The notes under the pieces are model-generated. The model saw only the letters and a program-made list of their open reading frames with translations, ran no database searches and was not told where the DNA came from. The translations under genes and the position numbers were made by a program. From positions 1 through 64,000 of the forward strand of contig JABLXH010000017.1 in assembly GCA_013178155.1 (NCBI GenBank): DNA of 64,000 bases, read 5' to 3'. Source of the stretch: Armatimonadota bacterium. GTDB lineage: Bacteria > Armatimonadota > Zipacnadia > Zipacnadales > UBA11051. Position 1 is the first letter of the stretch; each line of letters opens with the position of its first letter. Shown piece after piece: positions 23,448 through 46,874 of this stretch.

Positions 23448-23557
23448 CCGAGCGTGGCCCGGGACGGACCGGAGGTGGGGCTGTGCCTCCGAGCGAAGCA
23501 TCCCAGCAGCCAGGGGCTCGCATGCCTGTGTGCAATTCGCTGGAGGGAGGTCCGACA

Positions 23558-26500
23558 ATGTGGGTCTGGGTGGCCATCGCGGCAGGACTGATCGCCAGCG
23601 ACGCGCTGGCGGCCGACGAGCCGGGGTTGATCGCTAACGGCAGCTTTGAGGCCGACGGAAGCAAGCTGGTGGGCGTGGGCTACGTGGCAGAAGGCAATGC
23701 CCTGACCGGTTGGACGCCCTCCGAGGCGGTGGGCGTCGCGCGGGCTACGCAGGGCCATGCCTTCTTCGACAACGGAGTCCCACCCGACGGCGAGGTCGTA
23801 GCAGTGCTACAGAACCGTACCGCGATGCGCCAGGAGATCGGTCCGCTGGTGCGTGACCAGGTCTACCGACTACGCCTGAGGGCTAACGGCCGGGCCTCTG
23901 ACCAGACCGGACTGGGACACTATGGCAGCCTGCTGGTGCGCCTCAACGAGACGGTACTCCTGGGACCGGTGGAAGTCGCCGCCGTGGACCCGCTGGGGCA
24001 GCACGAGACGCCCTTCCACACCTTTGAGGCCGCCTTCTACACCGGCGGTGGGCGGTGTCTATTGGAGCTGAGCCAGGTCGCGCCGGGCGATGGCGTGTCC
24101 GTCATGATAGACGACATCCGCGTGGAGCCCGTTGACACACCCTTGGCCGACGCCATCCGGGTCAACCGCGCCCGTGTTCGGGGCATCGCCGAACCGGTTG
24201 CGGGCGTTGATTTCCGGAGCACACAGTGGATCTGGTCTGCGGAGGGCGCACCGCAGCCCGCTGATGTCCCCGCCGGAACGCGGTATTTCAGGCGCACGTT
24301 CGATGTGCCTGACCTCGGCCAGGTGACGCGCGCCCTGGTCATCGCCTCCGCCGACAACTCGGCACAAGTCTACATCAACGGCGTGGACTGCGGTACCGCC
24401 GGGGGCTTCAGCAACTGGTATGAGATGGACTGCACCGAGGCCCTGCGTGCTGGCCGCAACGTCCTGGCGGCCGAGGTAGCCAACGCCGGAGACAAGCCCA
24501 ACCCTGCCGGCTTTGCGGCCATGCTGGTGCTCTACGATGCCGCCGGCCAGGTGCTTCAGGCCCTGCCGACCGGGCCGCACTGGCGTGTCAATGCCGAGGC
24601 TCCCCCCGGGTGGCTTGAGGCCGGCTTCGACGATGTGAGCTGGCCGTCTGCTGTCTCCGTAGGCCCCGTGGGCTGTGCCCCCTGGGGCAGCTTCGGCTTC
24701 CTGACCTGGCTCGTCCCCGACGACTTCCCGCACTTTCGTGTGCCGGGCCATGAGCGCTACATGGAGCTGCTGCAGCAGCTTCACTGGCTGCATTACGGGG
24801 GCTCGGGGCCCAAGGCTACGCTATGGGACGGGTGGATGTCCATGTGCTCCCTGTGGCCCGCTGTGGGGCAGGAGCCCAGCGCCGACGACTTCCGCGCCCA
24901 GTGGCGGGCTGTGCTGCCTGCGCGCGAGATTGACCACGAAGGCTATGTCGGTACCCATCAGCACCACGGCTTTGGCCACGGCGGTGGTTGGCCCTTCCCC
25001 ACCTGCTTCCAGGCTCAGGGCGTTGGCTACCAGTTCGCGGTCAACCACGTCGCCTACCGTGTGCCGCCCGTACGCGAGGTGTCCAACTGGCAACTCCAGG
25101 GGCTGGAGACGGTCTCGCTCGATGAGACCGAGGGCTGGTCAGTGCGCGTGACTGACGACGAGGCGACGCTGGTAACGCCGGACTTCGACTGCGACAGCTT
25201 CGTGGCCCCCTTCATCCGCCTGGAGTGGCGCCCGGACTTCCCGCCGGAAGCCGAGGGCACGCTGGAGTGGGCCACGGCCGATGCGCCAGAGTTTGGCCCC
25301 GAGCGTAGCCTGCCCTTGCATCTGGAGCCCGATGTCCCCGGCGGCGCCTACACGCACGTGCCCCTCTACAGGCACCCCGAGTGGAAGGGACGACTGACGA
25401 GACTCCGGCTCACGTTCCGGCACGCAAACGGCGGGACGTTCCGCCTGCTCGGCCTCATCACCGCGCCCGATACCCGTCATCCGGTCAACAACTCTTGCTA
25501 CCTGCAAGGCTGTACCGAGTACTTCAACTGGACCGGTGACCGCGGCTTCCTGAGCCAGGAGATCGGCCGCATGCGGACTGCTCTCCGGTACGCGCTGACG
25601 GAGTTCCAAGTCGAGGCCAACGGCTGCGTGCTGGTGCCCTGGGTGGGCCATTCGGGTCGGTCGGGGCTGGAGGTTGCGCCCGCTGGCACGAAGACCATCC
25701 GCTACGGTGAGGGGATCGGCGCCAACTACTGGGACCTGCTGCCCTTCAGCGGCTACGACTGCCTGGCGACCATCTACCTGTACGATGCCATGCGCCGCAT
25801 GGCCGCTCTCGAGGAGGCCATCGCTGCGCATCCCGACTGGGGCCTCCCCGCGCCGCCGCCTGAGCTGTCCGCCGCGCGTCTCCAGCGCCTCGCTGACAAC
25901 ATGGCCGCCCGGGGCCGCGAGCGCTTCTGGAATCCCGAGACCGGCCGCTTCGTGGCCTGCGTGGACACTGACGGCGTGGCCCACGACTATGGCTACACGT
26001 TCGTCAACTGCGAGGCCATCTACTACGGCTTCGCCTCGTCCGAACAGGCGCGGAGTATCCTTGACTGGCTCGACGGCCGCCGCGTGGTCTCGGGTGACAC
26101 CGCCACTGGCGCTGACATCTACCACTGGCGCTTTGGCCCCCGCGCCAGCACCCGACGCAATGTCGAATGGTACACCTTCCCCTGGTCAGGACCGGAGAGC
26201 ATCCCCTGGGGTGGGCAGGTGCAGGATGGCGGGGCCGTGCTGGGCTTCGCTTTCCATGACCAGATGGCGCGCCTCATGACTGCCGGTCCCGACGACGCCT
26301 GGCGCATGCTCCGGCAGACCCTCGACTGGTTCGCCGAGGTACGCGCCGAAGGCGGCTACCGGGCCTACTATGCCGTGCCTGGCCGGGGTACGCTGCAGGG
26401 CGGTGGCCCGCCGGGAGGCCTGGGGATGGACTGCGAGTTCTTCGAGAGCGCCCTGGTGCCGCAGATCATGCTCTATGGCTTCCTGGGCTTCCGCGCCGAG

Positions 26501-26749
26501 CCCGACGGCTTCCTCCTCGACCCGCGCCTGCCCGCCGACTGGCCCGAACTACGGGTAACCCGCATCCACTACCGCGACGCGGTCCTGACCATCACCGCCC
26601 GCCCCGACAGCCTGCTTCTCACCAGCCAGGGCCAGCCCTGCCGCGCCCGCCTCCGCCTACCGGAGGGCTGGACCATCACCGGCCAGGGCACCAACGAGGC
26701 CGAGGTTGCGCTCGGTGGTGGGGCGGAGGTTGGGGCGAGCAGGGGATAG
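23558..26749 (+). CDS. Large secreted glycosidase-like protein with (alpha/alpha)6 toroid domain
   Basis: A 1063-residue exported protein. After the signal peptide (MWVWVAIAAGLIASDALAA) comes a jelly-roll domain starting LIANGSFEADGSKLVGVG (about 25-190, ending with IDDIRVEPVD), then a second galactose-binding-like domain (TRYFRRTFDVPDL, VYINGVDCGT; about 215-380) similar to the N-terminal domains of GH78 rhamnosidases. The C-terminal half has a helical toroid signature (LYDAMRRMAALEEAI, ERFWNPETGRFVACVDTDG, FAFHDQMARLMTA) and ends in a beta-sandwich (FLLDPRLPADWPELRV). The architecture is GH78/GH63/GH95-like, but the family and substrate are not certain. GGAGGGAGG precedes ATG 23558. Confidence 0.8.
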   Translation: MWVWVAIAAGLIASDALAADEPGLIANGSFEADGSKLVGVGYVAEGNALTGWTPSEAVGVARATQGHAFFDNGVPPDGEVVAVLQNRTAMRQEIGPLVRDQVYRLRLRANGRASDQTGLGHYGSLLVRLNETVLLGPVEVAAVDPLGQHETPFHTFEAAFYTGGGRCLLELSQVAPGDGVSVMIDDIRVEPVDTPLADAIRVNRARVRGIAEPVAGVDFRSTQWIWSAEGAPQPADVPAGTRYFRRTFDVPDLGQVTRALVIASADNSAQVYINGVDCGTAGGFSNWYEMDCTEALRAGRNVLAAEVANAGDKPNPAGFAAMLVLYDAAGQVLQALPTGPHWRVNAEAPPGWLEAGFDDVSWPSAVSVGPVGCAPWGSFGFLTWLVPDDFPHFRVPGHERYMELLQQLHWLHYGGSGPKATLWDGWMSMCSLWPAVGQEPSADDFRAQWRAVLPAREIDHEGYVGTHQHHGFGHGGGWPFPTCFQAQGVGYQFAVNHVAYRVPPVREVSNWQLQGLETVSLDETEGWSVRVTDDEATLVTPDFDCDSFVAPFIRLEWRPDFPPEAEGTLEWATADAPEFGPERSLPLHLEPDVPGGAYTHVPLYRHPEWKGRLTRLRLTFRHANGGTFRLLGLITAPDTRHPVNNSCYLQGCTEYFNWTGDRGFLSQEIGRMRTALRYALTEFQVEANGCVLVPWVGHSGRSGLEVAPAGTKTIRYGEGIGANYWDLLPFSGYDCLATIYLYDAMRRMAALEEAIAAHPDWGLPAPPPELSAARLQRLADNMAARGRERFWNPETGRFVACVDTDGVAHDYGYTFVNCEAIYYGFASSEQARSILDWLDGRRVVSGDTATGADIYHWRFGPRASTRRNVEWYTFPWSGPESIPWGGQVQDGGAVLGFAFHDQMARLMTAGPDDAWRMLRQTLDWFAEVRAEGGYRAYYAVPGRGTLQGGGPPGGLGMDCEFFESALVPQIMLYGFLGFRAEPDGFLLDPRLPADWPELRVTRIHYRDAVLTITARPDSLLLTSQGQPCRARLRLPEGWTITGQGTNEAEVALGGGAEVGASRG

Positions 26750-26838: not shown

Positions 26839-27774
26839 CTACCGCAGACCAACAACATCCCTGAAGAAGCTGTTGCACGTTGTCTCGTGGAACTGAAGCT
26901 CCTGTAAGCCGTGCTCCTGGCGGCACCGCTCCAGTGCCTCCATTTCAACGGAGCAGACCCCGTGCAGCGTCGAGCGTATCATCAGTTTGCCTCTCATGCG
27001 CCTATTGCTAAGCACCGCCTCGCGAACCCGGAGGCGTCTCAGGTTGTCACCATGGAGACCGAACCCCAGAAAGTACAGCCTCTCAGCGCTCGCGATCGCA
27101 TCGTGTGCTGCTTTGAACTCATCTGAGCAGAACTCCCCGCCTGAATCGTTGAACTCGCAGATGACCTTGATCGACGCAGCTCTGGCCGCGAGGTCGTCAC
27201 TGGTATCGTTGGCATAAGGCACCTCAGGGTATGGGCCCATCATCCCGTGAGGATGGATTATCCGCAGATCCTGGACTATGGCAGCCGCCTCTGACTCGGT
27301 GACGTTGTAGTGGTAACGGATCCGCTGCGTAAGGAAGGCCTGCAATGACCGGTCGTAGTTGAACGTGACAATGCTCAGGGCGTTCTCCAGCACTTCGTGC
27401 ACCATGCGTTCGCGGACCAAGGCGTCAAACAGGTGCGAGTACCACCCTGGGTCATTGGGCCAGACGAGCTTTTCCATATCCTCATGGCGCTTCAGTAGCG
27501 CCACGATCAGGACTTTCCCCAACTCGATGAACTGCGGGTTCGCGGACAGGAAAGCGTCTATGGAGCCGTGTGCGGAGTTTCCAAAGCGCACCGCCATGTC
27601 ACGGCGGAAGCCTGCGGGCCAGTTGGCGGCTATGTAAGGGTCTATATTCTCGCCGTGCTGACATAGGTACCTGCAGATGAGTGTCTTCAGCTCTGCGCCA
27701 CAGGGGTACCCCAAGTGTGCGCTTGCTCCGGCTCCCAGCACGAGGACGGTCCGTACGGTTATCGACTCTGACAC
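26839..27774 (-). CDS. SIR2-like NADase-type protein, candidate defence gene
   Basis: A 311-residue protein of the bacterial SIR2-like group (SIR2_2 type). The NAD-binding GAGAS loop is at residues 14-18 (VLVLGAGASAHLGYPCGAEL), the SIR2 Asn lies in TFNYDRSLQAFL (about 137-148), the His in IIHPHGMMG (about 172-180), and a final Rossmann strand reads LYFLGFGLHGDNLRRL. Such domains deplete NAD+ in several phage-defence systems (Thoeris ThsA, DSR1/2, short Argonaute SPARSA), but a metabolic or regulatory role is possible. No TIR, Argonaute, helicase or other partner is adjacent. Base composition is visibly less GC-rich than the flanking glycosidase genes, which suggests transfer. The start GTG 27774 overlaps its only RBS-like sequence (GGGAGGTG), so the exact start is not settled. 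Confidence 0.8.
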   Translation of the reverse strand: MSESITVRTVLVLGAGASAHLGYPCGAELKTLICRYLCQHGENIDPYIAANWPAGFRRDMAVRFGNSAHGSIDAFLSANPQFIELGKVLIVALLKRHEDMEKLVWPNDPGWYSHLFDALVRERMVHEVLENALSIVTFNYDRSLQAFLTQRIRYHYNVTESEAAAIVQDLRIIHPHGMMGPYPEVPYANDTSDDLAARAASIKVICEFNDSGGEFCSDEFKAAHDAIASAERLYFLGFGLHGDNLRRLRVREAVLSNRRMRGKLMIRSTLHGVCSVEMEALERCRQEHGLQELQFHETTCNSFFRDVVGLR

Positions 27775-27871: not shown

Positions 27872-29851
27872 TCACCTCCTCACCCCCACCTCCCCCACCT
27901 CGAACGGCACGAAGCCTAGCTTCAGCGCCGGGGAGTCGGGGTGCAGGCGGAAGTCGTTGGCGGCGACGGAGACAAAGCGCGGGTCGGCGATGACCGACTC
28001 CTGGTCCAGCCACATGCCCTGCTTGCGCCACTCCCCCAGCGGGAAGCCCAGGAAGGTCACCGGCGCACCGCTGTAGTCGTAGTAGACGTTGTAGTTCAGC
28101 ACCATGCGGTAGTTGGGCCACTTGGGCTCCACCCACAGCCGCCCGCCGTCCCAGCAGACGATGTTGCGCTGCAGCACATTGCAGTTGGTGTCATCATACT
28201 GCGGCGCGTCGCCGTAGCGCGTCCACTGGGCCGGACCGTTGAGCGCGAAGATGTTGTTGGTGACCACATTCCCCAGGCAGTCCCAGTTGAAGTGCAGCCC
28301 GGCGGCGTTGCGGTAGACCAGGTTGTCCTCAACTCGCACGCCGGTGGTCGCCTGGTCCAGACCGATGCCGTAGCCCGCGCAATCGTGTACCACGTTGCGG
28401 CGAATGATGGTGCCCGGCTGGATGCCGAGGGTGTAGATGGTGGAGTGAGAGCCCAGCAGGGTGCGGATGCTGTGGGCGTGGTTGTACTCGATGCGGTTGT
28501 CATGGGCGCGGCTGCGAGCATAGCCCCAGTTCCAGCCCGCCGACACCGCCCACTGCCAGGAGCCGACCATCTCGTTGTGGCTGACCGTGTTCTCGCCGCT
28601 CTGGCCGATCCAGACCGCCGGGCCACCGAAGTAGCTCTGGGCGCCGTCGCGGAAGAGGCAGTCGCTGATGGTTGTGCGGCAGGCCTCGTCGGCGTCGTCG
28701 GCGCAGACCTCCGGCTCGCCGACCTTCACTCCGCCTGCCCCCAGGTCCTGGAAGGTGCAGCGCAGCACGCGGTTGCCCTGGCAGCCGCGACCGAGTTCGA
28801 GGCCCCAGGTATCGGCATGGGACACCTCGCAGTCGGCGAAGAGGCAGTCGCGAGCGTAGCTGGCGCTGACCGCTGCGCCGACCGGCAGTTCCGCCTGGGG
28901 ATACCCCAGGCCCTCGGGCGGCAGGTTCCAGGCGCAGTGAGCAAAGCGCAGACCGCGCACCTCGACATGCCGCACCGGGCGCTCCGCCGTGCCCTCCAGG
29001 CGCAGAACCTGCTCCAACACCGGGGCGATGACTTCTGCGCTCCCGAGGTCCTCGCCGGGCAGGGGCAGGTAGCGGAACTGGCCAGTCGGGCGGTCCAGGT
29101 ACCACTGCCCCGGCTTCTCCAGGGCCTCGGCGACGTTCTCCACGTAGTAGCCCATGTTCCAATACAGCGGCCGCCAGCTCCCGCCGGTAAAGGTAATGAG
29201 GCGCTCGGTCTCATCGAGGCGGGCGATGCGCAGGCGCGCCTCGGTCCAGAACTGCAGCACGATGACCTCGATGTCGTCGCGGTTGCGCCAGTCAGCCCGC
29301 ACATGACCTGGCGCGTAGACGAGGGTCGCGTTCTCCGGGCTGCCATACCCGGCCAGGGCGTAGGTCCCGGTCTCCGGCAGGCGCGGCCTGGCGCGGCGCT
29401 TGTCGTTGACCCAAAGGTGGCGGAAGTACCGCTTGCCATCGCGCACCTCTGGCACGATGGTTTCCCAGGCGCCGCCACTTGCCCGCAACCCCGAGAGCTT
29501 CGTGCCGCCACTCAAGACCACTCTGTCGCCGGGGTAAGCGGCCAGTACGGTTGGCCCCGCCACCGAGCCGCTGTGTTCGGAGAGGAGACGCAACGGCGCT
29601 GTCAGGTAGTACGTCCCCTGGCGGACGAACACGGTGATAGGGTCAGTGCGTCCGGCCCTGCGAGCGGCGGCCACGGCGTCGAGGCCCCGCTGGATCGTGG
29701 CGAAGGGGCCGTCCTTGCCGCTCGCGTTCGGCTGGGCCAACCGTCCGGTCCAGGTGTCGCGACCGGCGGGCGAGACGTAGAACGTTTGGCTCGGCGCAGC
29801 CTGGACGACGGCACAGAGGATGATGAGCAAGCAGGGGGTGAGGTAAGCCAC
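27872..29851 (-). CDS. Secreted right-handed parallel beta-helix protein (GH141-like)
   Basis: A 659-residue exported protein with a signal peptide (VAYLTPCLLIILCAVVQAAP). The N-terminal FYVSPAGRDTWTGRLAQP followed by DGPFATIQRGLDAV is the typical start of GH141/pectate-lyase-like parallel beta-helix proteins. Rungs with repeated hydrophobic and Asn positions run to near the end (VLRCTFQDLGAGGVKVG, GENTVSHNEMVGSW, GVRVEDNLVYRNAAGLHF). It is likely a carbohydrate-active enzyme on plant or algal polysaccharide. GTG 29851 is preferred because AGGAGGAA lies just upstream and the preceding gene's TAA is only two bases away, indicating coupling to the GH5-like gene. Confidence 0.85.
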   Translation of the reverse strand: MAYLTPCLLIILCAVVQAAPSQTFYVSPAGRDTWTGRLAQPNASGKDGPFATIQRGLDAVAAARRAGRTDPITVFVRQGTYYLTAPLRLLSEHSGSVAGPTVLAAYPGDRVVLSGGTKLSGLRASGGAWETIVPEVRDGKRYFRHLWVNDKRRARPRLPETGTYALAGYGSPENATLVYAPGHVRADWRNRDDIEVIVLQFWTEARLRIARLDETERLITFTGGSWRPLYWNMGYYVENVAEALEKPGQWYLDRPTGQFRYLPLPGEDLGSAEVIAPVLEQVLRLEGTAERPVRHVEVRGLRFAHCAWNLPPEGLGYPQAELPVGAAVSASYARDCLFADCEVSHADTWGLELGRGCQGNRVLRCTFQDLGAGGVKVGEPEVCADDADEACRTTISDCLFRDGAQSYFGGPAVWIGQSGENTVSHNEMVGSWQWAVSAGWNWGYARSRAHDNRIEYNHAHSIRTLLGSHSTIYTLGIQPGTIIRRNVVHDCAGYGIGLDQATTGVRVEDNLVYRNAAGLHFNWDCLGNVVTNNIFALNGPAQWTRYGDAPQYDDTNCNVLQRNIVCWDGGRLWVEPKWPNYRMVLNYNVYYDYSGAPVTFLGFPLGEWRKQGMWLDQESVIADPRFVSVAANDFRLHPDSPALKLGFVPFEVGEVGVRR

Positions 29852-29853
29852 CG

Positions 29854-31215
29854 TTACTGTTCCTCCTGGGCAGGCTCCCCTGGCGCCGGAGAGGTCCGCC
29901 AAGTCTCAAGCAGCGTGGTACCGTACTCCGGGAAGAGCACGAGTGAGGGGTTCTCATCTTGAACGGTGCTGTCAGGGTTCCCGTAGGCCCAGTACAGGGC
30001 CCCAGCCAGGCCCTCCCGGCGCAGCCCAGCCACATGCTCCCGCAGACAACCCAGCCCCAGCGCATGGTCAATTCTCTGCCAGTCCGGGGCGCTTCGGAGG
30101 TAGTTGGCAAAGACTCCACACTCGCCGCACAGAATGGGTTTCCCCAGTTGGGTGGCCTGTTGGCGCACGGCCTGCCACTCGGCGGACTCCAGGTTACGGC
30201 GGAGGAAGTCGGCCACGCCCTGCTCGGCGGTACGCCAGGCGTACAGGTGGACGTCCGCGAAGTCCAGACGGGACCCGAGGAGGGCCTGCAGCCGGGCGGG
30301 AATGCGCTCGTCGGTAGTCTGGTCCTGCGACAGGGTACCAGGTCCTTGCCGACCCACGGCGGCGAAGGTGAAAACACTGCAGCTTACCAGAGCCTTTGGG
30401 TCGGCTTGATGGATAGCATCGGCACAGCAGTTGGCCCACTGCACGAAGATCCGGTCCATCAGCGTCTGCGCCTCCGTATCCGAGGCCAGGGCGTAATCCC
30501 GGCCGGCGAAGGTGAAGCTGGCGGCCCGCTCGGCGAAGGGCGCCTGACGCTGGCTCAGACAGGCCTCGTTTTCCAGCTCCCAGGCCAGGACCACTGCCAG
30601 CAAGTCGGGGTCGCGAGCGCGGAGGGCCTCGATCAGGGTCACGATGCCGTTGGCTCGGGTGCGCACCGAACCACGGTGCAGGCGGAAGTTGTTCACCCCC
30701 ATCGTCTGATCCCAGTCGGCCCGCAGGTCACAGTCGGCCTCACCCGGGAGTGGCCGTGCGGACCACCAGTCGGAGGGCGGAAGCCATATGTCCCACGAGA
30801 AGATCACACGCAGCCGGTGCGTTCGCGCAGTCTGCAGGAAGTGGACGACGTTGTCGAGGTAGGCAGGAGAGATCTCGCGGGCCTGAGGTGAGACCAGGAT
30901 GCCCGTCTCGCCCACGTGATACACGTGGAAAGTGCGGATCGTGTTGAAGCCCCATCCCGCCAGGTCGGCCATCATCTTCTCAACGAAGCTGCGGTCGTAA
31001 GAGCCAGGACAGAAGGTGGCGTGGCCGACCTTGCCTTCCTGAAGCGGGCCAACGCGATAGTAGTTGGCGCCCAGAGGGACAAAGGGCTGCCCAGTGGCAC
31101 TGTCCACGAAACCACCCCCTGCTATGGCAATGCGTGGGGTATCGGCGCGCGGACTCGCCGCGGCCACGAGAAGACCAACACTGCAGGCAAGTAGCGCAAG
31201 GGCCGGTTGGGGCAT
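29854..31215 (-). CDS. Secreted GH5-like (mannanase/cellulase-type) glycoside hydrolase
   Basis: A 453-residue exported TIM-barrel hydrolase. The signal peptide is MPQPALALLACSVGLLVAA. GQPFVPLGANYY opens the barrel and FNTIRTFHVYH forms strand 2. The acid/base Glu is in AWELENEACL (Glu217) and the probable nucleophile Glu in PILCGECGVF (Glu365). YWAYGN near the C-terminus matches strand 8. Enzymes like this cleave beta-1,4-mannans or glucans; the exact substrate is not predictable. It is the second gene of a minus-strand run with the beta-helix gene, and follows the membrane-protein gene by 13 bases. Confidence 0.87.
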   Translation of the reverse strand: MPQPALALLACSVGLLVAAASPRADTPRIAIAGGGFVDSATGQPFVPLGANYYRVGPLQEGKVGHATFCPGSYDRSFVEKMMADLAGWGFNTIRTFHVYHVGETGILVSPQAREISPAYLDNVVHFLQTARTHRLRVIFSWDIWLPPSDWWSARPLPGEADCDLRADWDQTMGVNNFRLHRGSVRTRANGIVTLIEALRARDPDLLAVVLAWELENEACLSQRQAPFAERAASFTFAGRDYALASDTEAQTLMDRIFVQWANCCADAIHQADPKALVSCSVFTFAAVGRQGPGTLSQDQTTDERIPARLQALLGSRLDFADVHLYAWRTAEQGVADFLRRNLESAEWQAVRQQATQLGKPILCGECGVFANYLRSAPDWQRIDHALGLGCLREHVAGLRREGLAGALYWAYGNPDSTVQDENPSLVLFPEYGTTLLETWRTSPAPGEPAQEEQ

Positions 31216-45649: not shown

Positions 45650-46342
45650 CTACGGATACTGACCCGACGGACGCCAGTTCCTGGGATTTCCGTCGACACC
45701 GAACACGCCCGCGCTCTTCACCATCCACTTGGCGTGACCGTCTGCGAACACGCAGTTAGTGCCATCGTTGTGGCGGAATGATACCCGCCCCCACGGGGCT
45801 TCTGTCCGACAGCAGCTCTCGCGCGGAGCAGGCGCAATGTAGCCGCTCGCGCAGCAGTCTTCGCGATCGGCCTTGTCATTGTTGCGGGAGTCCGCGACGG
45901 CGATACATTCCGCGGGATACTTGATGGCCCCCAGCTTCTGGTAGTCCAACGCGAAGTTCCACCCATAGCTCCTGGGCACCGCCTGGTACGGGCCATTGGG
46001 AGACACATAATAGTTGTTCATCAACGCGTCGCGGGGCATGGACGGGCAAGCGAAGAGCTGGGTATTCTTGATATACGGGAAGATCTGGCCCGCCCAGCAG
46101 GCGTGATAGGCAACCGTACCCGACGGCGCCGGACAGCACGGACAGTGCCGTGGGAACTTCTCATCGAAGTCCTGCGCATACATGGCCAGTCCCAGACCGA
46201 TTTGCTTCACATTAGACAGACAGGAGGTCTGGCGGGCCTTCTCCCGGGCCTTGGCAAAGACCGGGAACAGGATTGCGGCCAGGATCGCGATGATCGCGAT
46301 CACGACCAGCAACTCAATAAGCGTAAAGCCACGTCGCATCAT
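45650..46342 (-). CDS. Type IV pseudopilin-like protein (DUF1559/prepilin N-terminus)
   Basis: A 230-residue protein with a class III prepilin signal: [20 protein letters not shown], where PilD-type cleavage would fall after Gly and leave N-methyl-Phe. The following [19 protein letters not shown] and [11 protein letters not shown] are the pattern seen in the very numerous DUF1559-like proteins of Armatimonadota and Planctomycetota. The C-terminal domain ends with [19 protein letters not shown], the H-x-G motif of the family. It has an unusual number of cysteines (HCPCC, EDCCAS, ESCC). AAAGGAG is seven bases before ATG 46342. The protein is probably part of a secretion or surface pseudopilus. 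Confidence 0.9.
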
Positions 46343-46874
46343 GTCACGACTCCTTTCGCCCTCGTGAAGGTATGCCTGCGATGAGTTCTGCGGCCATCCG
46401 GGCACGACACTCGCTCTGCGTCACTCAACACCGCAATCAGGCTCTGGGCCGATCTCACCTCCCTTCCTCCCCCCCGTTACCGGTCCTTCCCCCAGCGCTC
46501 CACAACGACAACCATGTTGATATGGGCCATATTCCCCATAATCTCGCCGCTTCCTTCCTCTGAGTAAAAAAAGTTATGATAAAGTTCATTGACTTACCGC
46601 CATGTTGCGCTGGCCGAGACTGTGAGCTCGTCCCTGAGTTATGCGGAAACAAACCCCTTTACCAACTGCTCGGCAACGCGCGTTACGCCGGGGGGCTGCG
46701 GTGGGTTGCCCGGGTGCCGTGCAAGGCGGGCTTTGGGGGAAGCGGAAGGCTACTGGCGGCCTGCTATTGGGGGCAGGCGGAGCGGTCCAGACGGCCAGTC
46801 AGGTCCTCGAAGAGGATTTCGAGGTCTGGCCGCCCGATGGTGTGGGCGCTGTCCGGCGAGGTGCGGGACTGGAG
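46343..46874. other. Intergenic region between pseudopilin and heparinase genes
   Basis: This region of more than 500 bases has no gene I can support. It includes an A-tract and AT-rich patch (about 46564-46600) and a purine-rich stretch on the minus strand just upstream of the pseudopilin gene, which may be a long leader. A minus-strand 20-codon frame (MGNMAHINMVVVVERWGKDR) with a GGAAGGAAG sequence upstream is present but has no other support. Confidence 0.45.

Follow-up and report, generated by a model that had tools for sequence, protein, structure and literature searches.

To our knowledge, in the SIR2 antiphage systems described so far the enzyme is accompanied by a sensor domain or by a partner. 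KomC of the Kongming system (KomBC) is a single-domain SIR2 protein of 264-278 aa, near in size to the SIR2-like protein encoded in the 64-kb stretch of DNA analysed here (the window), and shares the NYDR and G...N motifs with the family of that protein. However, KomC works with KomB (according to PDB titles), whereas no gene of this kind adjoins the window gene, its neighbours being glycosidase genes; moreover, KomC carries KFHG where the window family has HxHG, and in the window protein the helical region is longer and its SID motif contains an invariant aspartate. The SIR2 subunit of SIR2-HerA (Nezha) provided the best Foldseek matches to our structural model, with the top VIA-align Z scores (15.1 and 15.0), but this subunit works with HerA, and no HerA-like gene was found among the ten flanking window proteins. 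Thoeris combines a two-domain ThsA with the TIR protein ThsB, whereas the window protein has a single domain within 311 aa and no TIR was detected in the ten flanking proteins. DSR1 and DSR2 are long proteins with a C-terminal sensor region (the matched full-length DSR2 chains have ~950 residues, compared to 311 aa here), and in SPARSA a SIR2-APAZ protein acts with a pAgo, unlike the single-domain window protein, whose ten flanking proteins gave no Argonaute-type match.

Two more distant comparisons are of interest. Human FAM118B (SIRal) resembles the window protein in its SIR2_2-type fold (Z 12.3) and in an active-site asparagine and histidine that serve NAD processing, but it belongs to a vertebrate clade with a filament surface of its own, as described in the available part of the source (PMC12700824); it was not matched at E<=1 by the profile of our alignment A2 (the window protein and its relatives, 96 sequences). 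AbiH (PF14253) matches 5 of these 96 sequences weakly (best E 4.3e-5), but not the window protein at E<=10, and 67 of the 96 match Pfam SIR2_2 (PF13289) instead (E<=0.01). The five weak matches hint at a possible distant relationship of AbiH to SIR2-type proteins. A search of 151 genomes for AbiH gave no match anywhere, controls included, and is therefore uninformative. By the features tested, the gene thus lies outside Thoeris, DSR, SIR2-HerA and SPARSA, and is a stand-alone variant of the SIR2 NADase kind. No description of the family was found in titles and abstracts, a coverage outside which most subscription papers fall. The SIR2_2 sirtuins of acetic acid bacteria, set beside the family by description only and from the part of the report that was accessible, may overlap with it (PMC11820453).

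Genomic setting of the SIR2-like gene

An earlier note on this DNA had placed the gene at exactly the right coordinates (26839-27774), without a strand, which is minus, and all three motifs it had named, GAGAS (14-18), TFNYD (137-141) and HPHG (174-177), are present in the 311-aa protein (Table 1). It had also described the gene as sitting alone among carbohydrate-degradation genes, and the scan of flanking proteins agrees: the convergent neighbour is a GH65-C-like/GH2-N-like glycosidase, and a GH5-like cellulase lies on the same side as the GH141-like protein.

Table 1. Coordinates of the SIR2-like gene, its conserved motifs and its direct neighbours in the window.
Feature	Position	Strand	Basis
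SIR2-like gene, stand-alone, 311 aa, GTG start (start uncertain)	26839..27774	-	ORF; fold by AlphaFold model
GAGAS nucleotide-binding loop, residues 14-18; G14, A15, G16 invariant (96/96)	27721..27735	-	alignment
SIDAFL, residues 71-76, helical part; D73 96/96, S71 91/96	27547..27564	-	alignment and model
FNYD, residues 138-141, with N139; aligned to NYD of KomC and ThsA	27352..27363	-	alignment
HPHG, residues 174-177; H174 94/96; H176 aligned with KomC H146, Tyr in 61/96	27244..27255	-	alignment
LGFGLHGDN, residues 236-244; G237 96/96, N244 95/96	27043..27069	-	alignment
GH141-like beta-helix protein, upstream co-oriented neighbour, 97 nt gap; outside the system	27872..29902	-	
Glycosidase, GH65 C-terminal-like domain, convergent neighbour; outside the system	23483..26749	+	

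Upstream of the GAGAS motif, as far as the preceding stop, the frame offers a single possible start codon (ATG, GTG or TTG), the GTG at 27774. The best ribosome-binding-like stretch directly abuts it, and residue 4 is a serine at the place where a methionine starts most relatives. Because the start codon is uncertain, the window copy may be poorly expressed, a point that counts against a defence function.

A search for direct repeats flanking the gene was negative, as was one for tRNAs in the 64-kb window. Neither the scan of flanking proteins nor that of 41 ORFs with PADLOC revealed phage genes on either side, a prophage or a defence island, a location that counts against a defence function. 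The PADLOC scan covered 41 of the 47 other called ORFs (590-62938), one glycosyltransferase ORF among them, and its only matches were judged to be housekeeping proteins: ShosA, QueC, a HamB-like helicase, PsyrA and others matched one ORF each and are probably housekeeping homologs. A prepilin-like protein is encoded at 45650-46405, with similar proteins in two other loci (L147 and L148). A test for an empty site gave no clean example. One genome (G009) encodes a GH141 homolog (~60% identity) with no SIR2 gene in the ~620 bases to the contig end, but belongs to another family of the order, and for the other flanking glycosidase no close match was found in the 15 genomes searched.

Fold and family assignment

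The window protein scores 20.5 bits against Pfam SIR2_2, below the curated cut-off of 24.5, and is therefore SIR2_2-like but below the formal Pfam line. None of the remaining Pfam SIR2 families matched it at E<=10, nor did any NCBIfam model, and as a single query it gave no meaningful phmmer match in the PDB. The check for defence homologs suggested in the earlier note did return a PADLOC SIR2 match, albeit a weak one (E 1e-4); a PADLOC SIR2 model matches 95 of the 96 family sequences at E<=0.01. Since the SIR2_2 score lies under the cut-off, the SIR2 call rests mainly on fold and relatives, and both bear it out. The AlphaFold model built from the 96 sequences (mean pLDDT 94.0, pTM 0.93) displays a SIR2 fold including the NAD pocket, with SPARSA and DSR2 next to SIR2-HerA among the best Foldseek matches. 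In VIA-align comparisons (rmsd 3.5-5.3 over 225-249 residues, with up to 265 aligned residues for antiphage SIR2 proteins) KomC (Z 14.8), ThsA (14.5), SPARSA (13.5) and DSR2 (12.7) rank between SIR2-HerA and FAM118B, and CobB, SIRT5 and other sirtuins match at about 12. A search of solved structures with the A2 profile placed KomC first (E 4.7e-8) and also matched ThsA. The viral structure library gave no match at E<=0.001. The relatives are short, single-domain proteins (266 to 418 aa, median 328, for the 121 family ORFs of at least 260 aa).

Active site and conserved residues

Alignment A2 comprises 95 relatives in addition to the window protein and derives from 126 ORFs (124 loci plus L002 and L005), of which length and start filters left 118 and the removal of redundancy 110; 15 more were dropped by hand, namely ORFs with odd starts, partial ORFs, L005, and some in order to keep the set small. 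N139 is found in all 96 sequences, although the invariance of the FNYD motif is partly by construction, since the genome scan used a pattern containing it. H174 is likewise nearly invariant. At position 176, in contrast, tyrosine (61 sequences) prevails over histidine (33) and phenylalanine (2). N139 and H176 align with the asparagine and H146 of KomC, whose H146N mutant is among the PDB entries, and in FAM118B the corresponding type of residues, N163 and H206, are needed for NAD processing according to the portion of PMC12700824 that was available. The window protein thus carries both the active-site asparagine and the histidine of SIR2 NADases, with H174 and H176 both present, but H176 is not conserved across the family. 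That the canonical catalytic position is a tyrosine in most relatives counts against a defence NADase; either this tyrosine stands in at position 176 or H174 took over. Changes between the histidine and tyrosine states number 11-13 on a quick tree, compared to about 28 with shuffled labels. Because of this swap, what the catalytic histidine of sirtuins contributes can be tested directly.

In the helical region S71, D73, G86, K87, E98 and W111 are each conserved in at least 89 of the 96 sequences. The window protein deviates at position 145, where it has Q instead of the E found in 90 of 96, a departure that likewise counts against the proposed function.

Base composition

The SIR2-like gene has a GC content of 0.585 (the window averages 0.66), the lowest of the 48 called ORFs, and none of 1225 windows of the same length placed outside it in the 64 kb reaches so low a value. 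Its GC3 is fifth lowest and its codon adaptation sixth lowest of the 48, and several of the ORFs ranking below it look like miscalls. The dip relative to both sides that the earlier note had seen by eye is thus real, and neither GC content nor codon use equals that of the neighbours.

The same note had taken the dip as a possible sign of recent acquisition, a reading that the relatives do not support. At 115 of the 117 measurable loci (of 124, L011-L134) the family gene has a lower GC content than its flanks (73 of 75 genome loci and 42 of 42 viral ones), with a mean deficit of ~9 points, while flank GC itself spans 31% to 71%. Codon positions one and two are also lower, in addition to GC3 (0.466 versus 0.610). 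Among control ORFs of 250-450 aa from the same loci, a set that includes miscalled ORFs, 178 of 525 fall below flank GC, and a deficit of at least 8 points was seen in 20 of 525, compared to 60 of 117 family genes. The GC content of the family gene tracks that of the flanks (slope 0.80, r 0.84) yet remains lower, which indicates a gene that adjusts in part to its respective host but still stays AT-rich. Low GC is therefore a family-wide trait and does not date the transfer into this genome; we rejected the dip as an argument for recent acquisition. It fits a defence gene, as low GC is typical of such genes according to the available part of PMC13092281. More generally, low GC can be a stable trait of a family, so that a GC dip alone is no sign of recent acquisition.

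Distribution and mobility

In a search of its own genome and 60 related ones (61 genomes) the window protein found only itself. The gene occurs in one of the seven genomes of its own family and, by profile search, in 5 of 291 genomes of the phylum; a sixth match of the single-sequence search (L006) was judged from its ORFs to belong to a different SIR2 family. Relatives are carried by 14 plasmid records of Agrobacterium and Rhizobium, and no match in plasmids was found at the DNA level. A scan of species genomes with a single pattern containing FNYD gave 116 confirmed places, of which 80 were kept for analysis; together with 44 viral contigs of IMG/VR they make up the 124 loci analysed, spread over many phyla. 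As IMG/VR contigs can include host flanks, these 44 loci are not all proven to be phage-borne. Among 50,697 phage records none matched any of three different queries, which counts against a defence function.

On the quick tree the window protein groups with one protein each from Nitrospirota, a deltaproteobacterium and Planctomycetaceae (up to 40% identity), and a second clade (37 rows) consists almost entirely of Pseudomonadota and viral contigs, apart from one Bacillus. We read this mixing of phyla as lateral transfer, in support of the lateral mobility implied in the earlier note. At least three relatives (L052, L054 and L083) are broken by a stop or frameshift, which suggests frequent loss. 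Among planctomycetes two family copies occur on one contig (L026 and L043) and another two in a different genome (L017 and L063).

Gene neighbourhoods of the relatives

No conserved partner gene was found within eight genes of the relatives, where the largest neighbour family occurs in 10 of 124 loci and at varied offsets (flanking genes were called by a longest-ORF method that includes miscalls). The immediate neighbours are mostly unrelated to each other and often housekeeping genes, with a few integrases, TIR and restriction proteins; homologs are thus not confined to conserved metabolic operons, since the neighbours vary between relatives. Pfam and PADLOC scans of 150 of the 153 immediate neighbours, run without a control set and considered for the 25 families listed, gave few defence models and common housekeeping genes beside the genome relatives, which was counted against a defence function. 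The earlier note had left open whether the gene is a single-gene defence system or the effector of an unrecognised one. The lack of a recurrent partner agrees with its stand-alone character and makes the effector of a multi-gene system the less likely of the two.

On viral contigs, 134 neighbours from 35 of the 44 loci were compared with PHROGs, and matches to major head protein, integrase and head maturation protease lead, with terminases behind. In one locus (L106) the gene is inserted in opposite orientation between the genes of a head-tail adaptor and of the major head protein, behind which come those of protease, portal and terminase, and two further loci (L103 and L114) show the same order by clustering and by eye. 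Elsewhere it is found between terminase and portal (L119), between two head genes, one minor and one major (L130), or two genes from an integrase (L117). Phage genes flank the relative on both sides in L106 and L119. These varied sites indicate that the gene has entered phage gene clusters at more than one place, in the manner of cargo genes.

Four loci (L039, L047, L071 and L083) have ribonucleotide reductase genes close to the SIR2 gene, seen as three matches among the 150 immediate neighbours and as one clustered family in four loci; in L071 a small-chain-like gene ends 6 bases before the SIR2 gene. This proximity possibly reflects an insertion hot spot or chance.

Proposed function

We consider it somewhat probable, on balance, that the gene encodes a mobile, free-standing SIR2_2-type effector that consumes NAD, carried by chromosomes, plasmids and prophages, and whose likeliest use would be single-gene phage defence through growth arrest or abortive infection. 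We infer this function from the best structural matches being antiphage SIR2 proteins, from the sporadic distribution, the prophage loci and the low GC, all of which favour defence. NAD+ would be bound in the cleft between the Rossmann-type core and the helical subdomain; once triggered, the enzyme would cleave nicotinamide off NAD+, and the drain of NAD+ would stop the phage along with the cell. As there is neither a partner nor a further domain, it must be the SIR2 domain that responds to the trigger, perhaps by assembly into oligomers, which the accessible part of PMC12700824 reports for several immune sirtuins.

A more specific version, which we put forward only tentatively, is that of a widespread SIR2 defence family without partner or sensor domain, in which sensing would be a property of the helical subdomain with its conserved residues (D73 in the SID motif, G86-K87, E98 and W111), and H174, which is nearly invariant and precedes the usual position by two residues, would perform the chemistry. 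The catalytic role having moved to H174, the usual histidine would be free to switch repeatedly to tyrosine, and the window protein, in which both histidines occur, would be instructive as an intermediate.

It is unlikely that the gene is instead a mobile selfish or accessory NAD-consuming enzyme of other purpose, such as a toxin of a toxin-antitoxin pair or a gene for competition between prophages. Carriage by prophages in several gene orders and by the plasmids of Agrobacterium and Rhizobium, one of them ~4 kb from a HipA gene, would fit such a role, but for a toxin-antitoxin pair a conserved small antitoxin-like neighbour is missing, given that no family recurs in more than 10 of 124 loci within eight genes. 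Quite unlikely, in our view, is that an acquired gene has decayed and no longer functions in this genome: the uncertain start codon, the Q at position 145 and the broken relatives point in this direction, whereas the full-length open frame, the presence of all core motifs and the confidently predicted fold speak against it. Similarly unlikely is a regulatory enzyme that acts as an NAD-dependent protein deacylase or as an ADP-ribosyl transferase. The SIR2 fold and the similarity to CobB, SIRT5 and other sirtuins can be adduced for it; the failure to match other Pfam SIR2 families, the NADase-type SIR2 proteins as closest folds and the sporadic distribution speak against it.

If the gene does function as a free-standing NAD-consuming defence effector, a compact lone SIR2 protein found across many phyla and in prophages would represent a minimal form of defence by NAD depletion that would be easy to clone and test.
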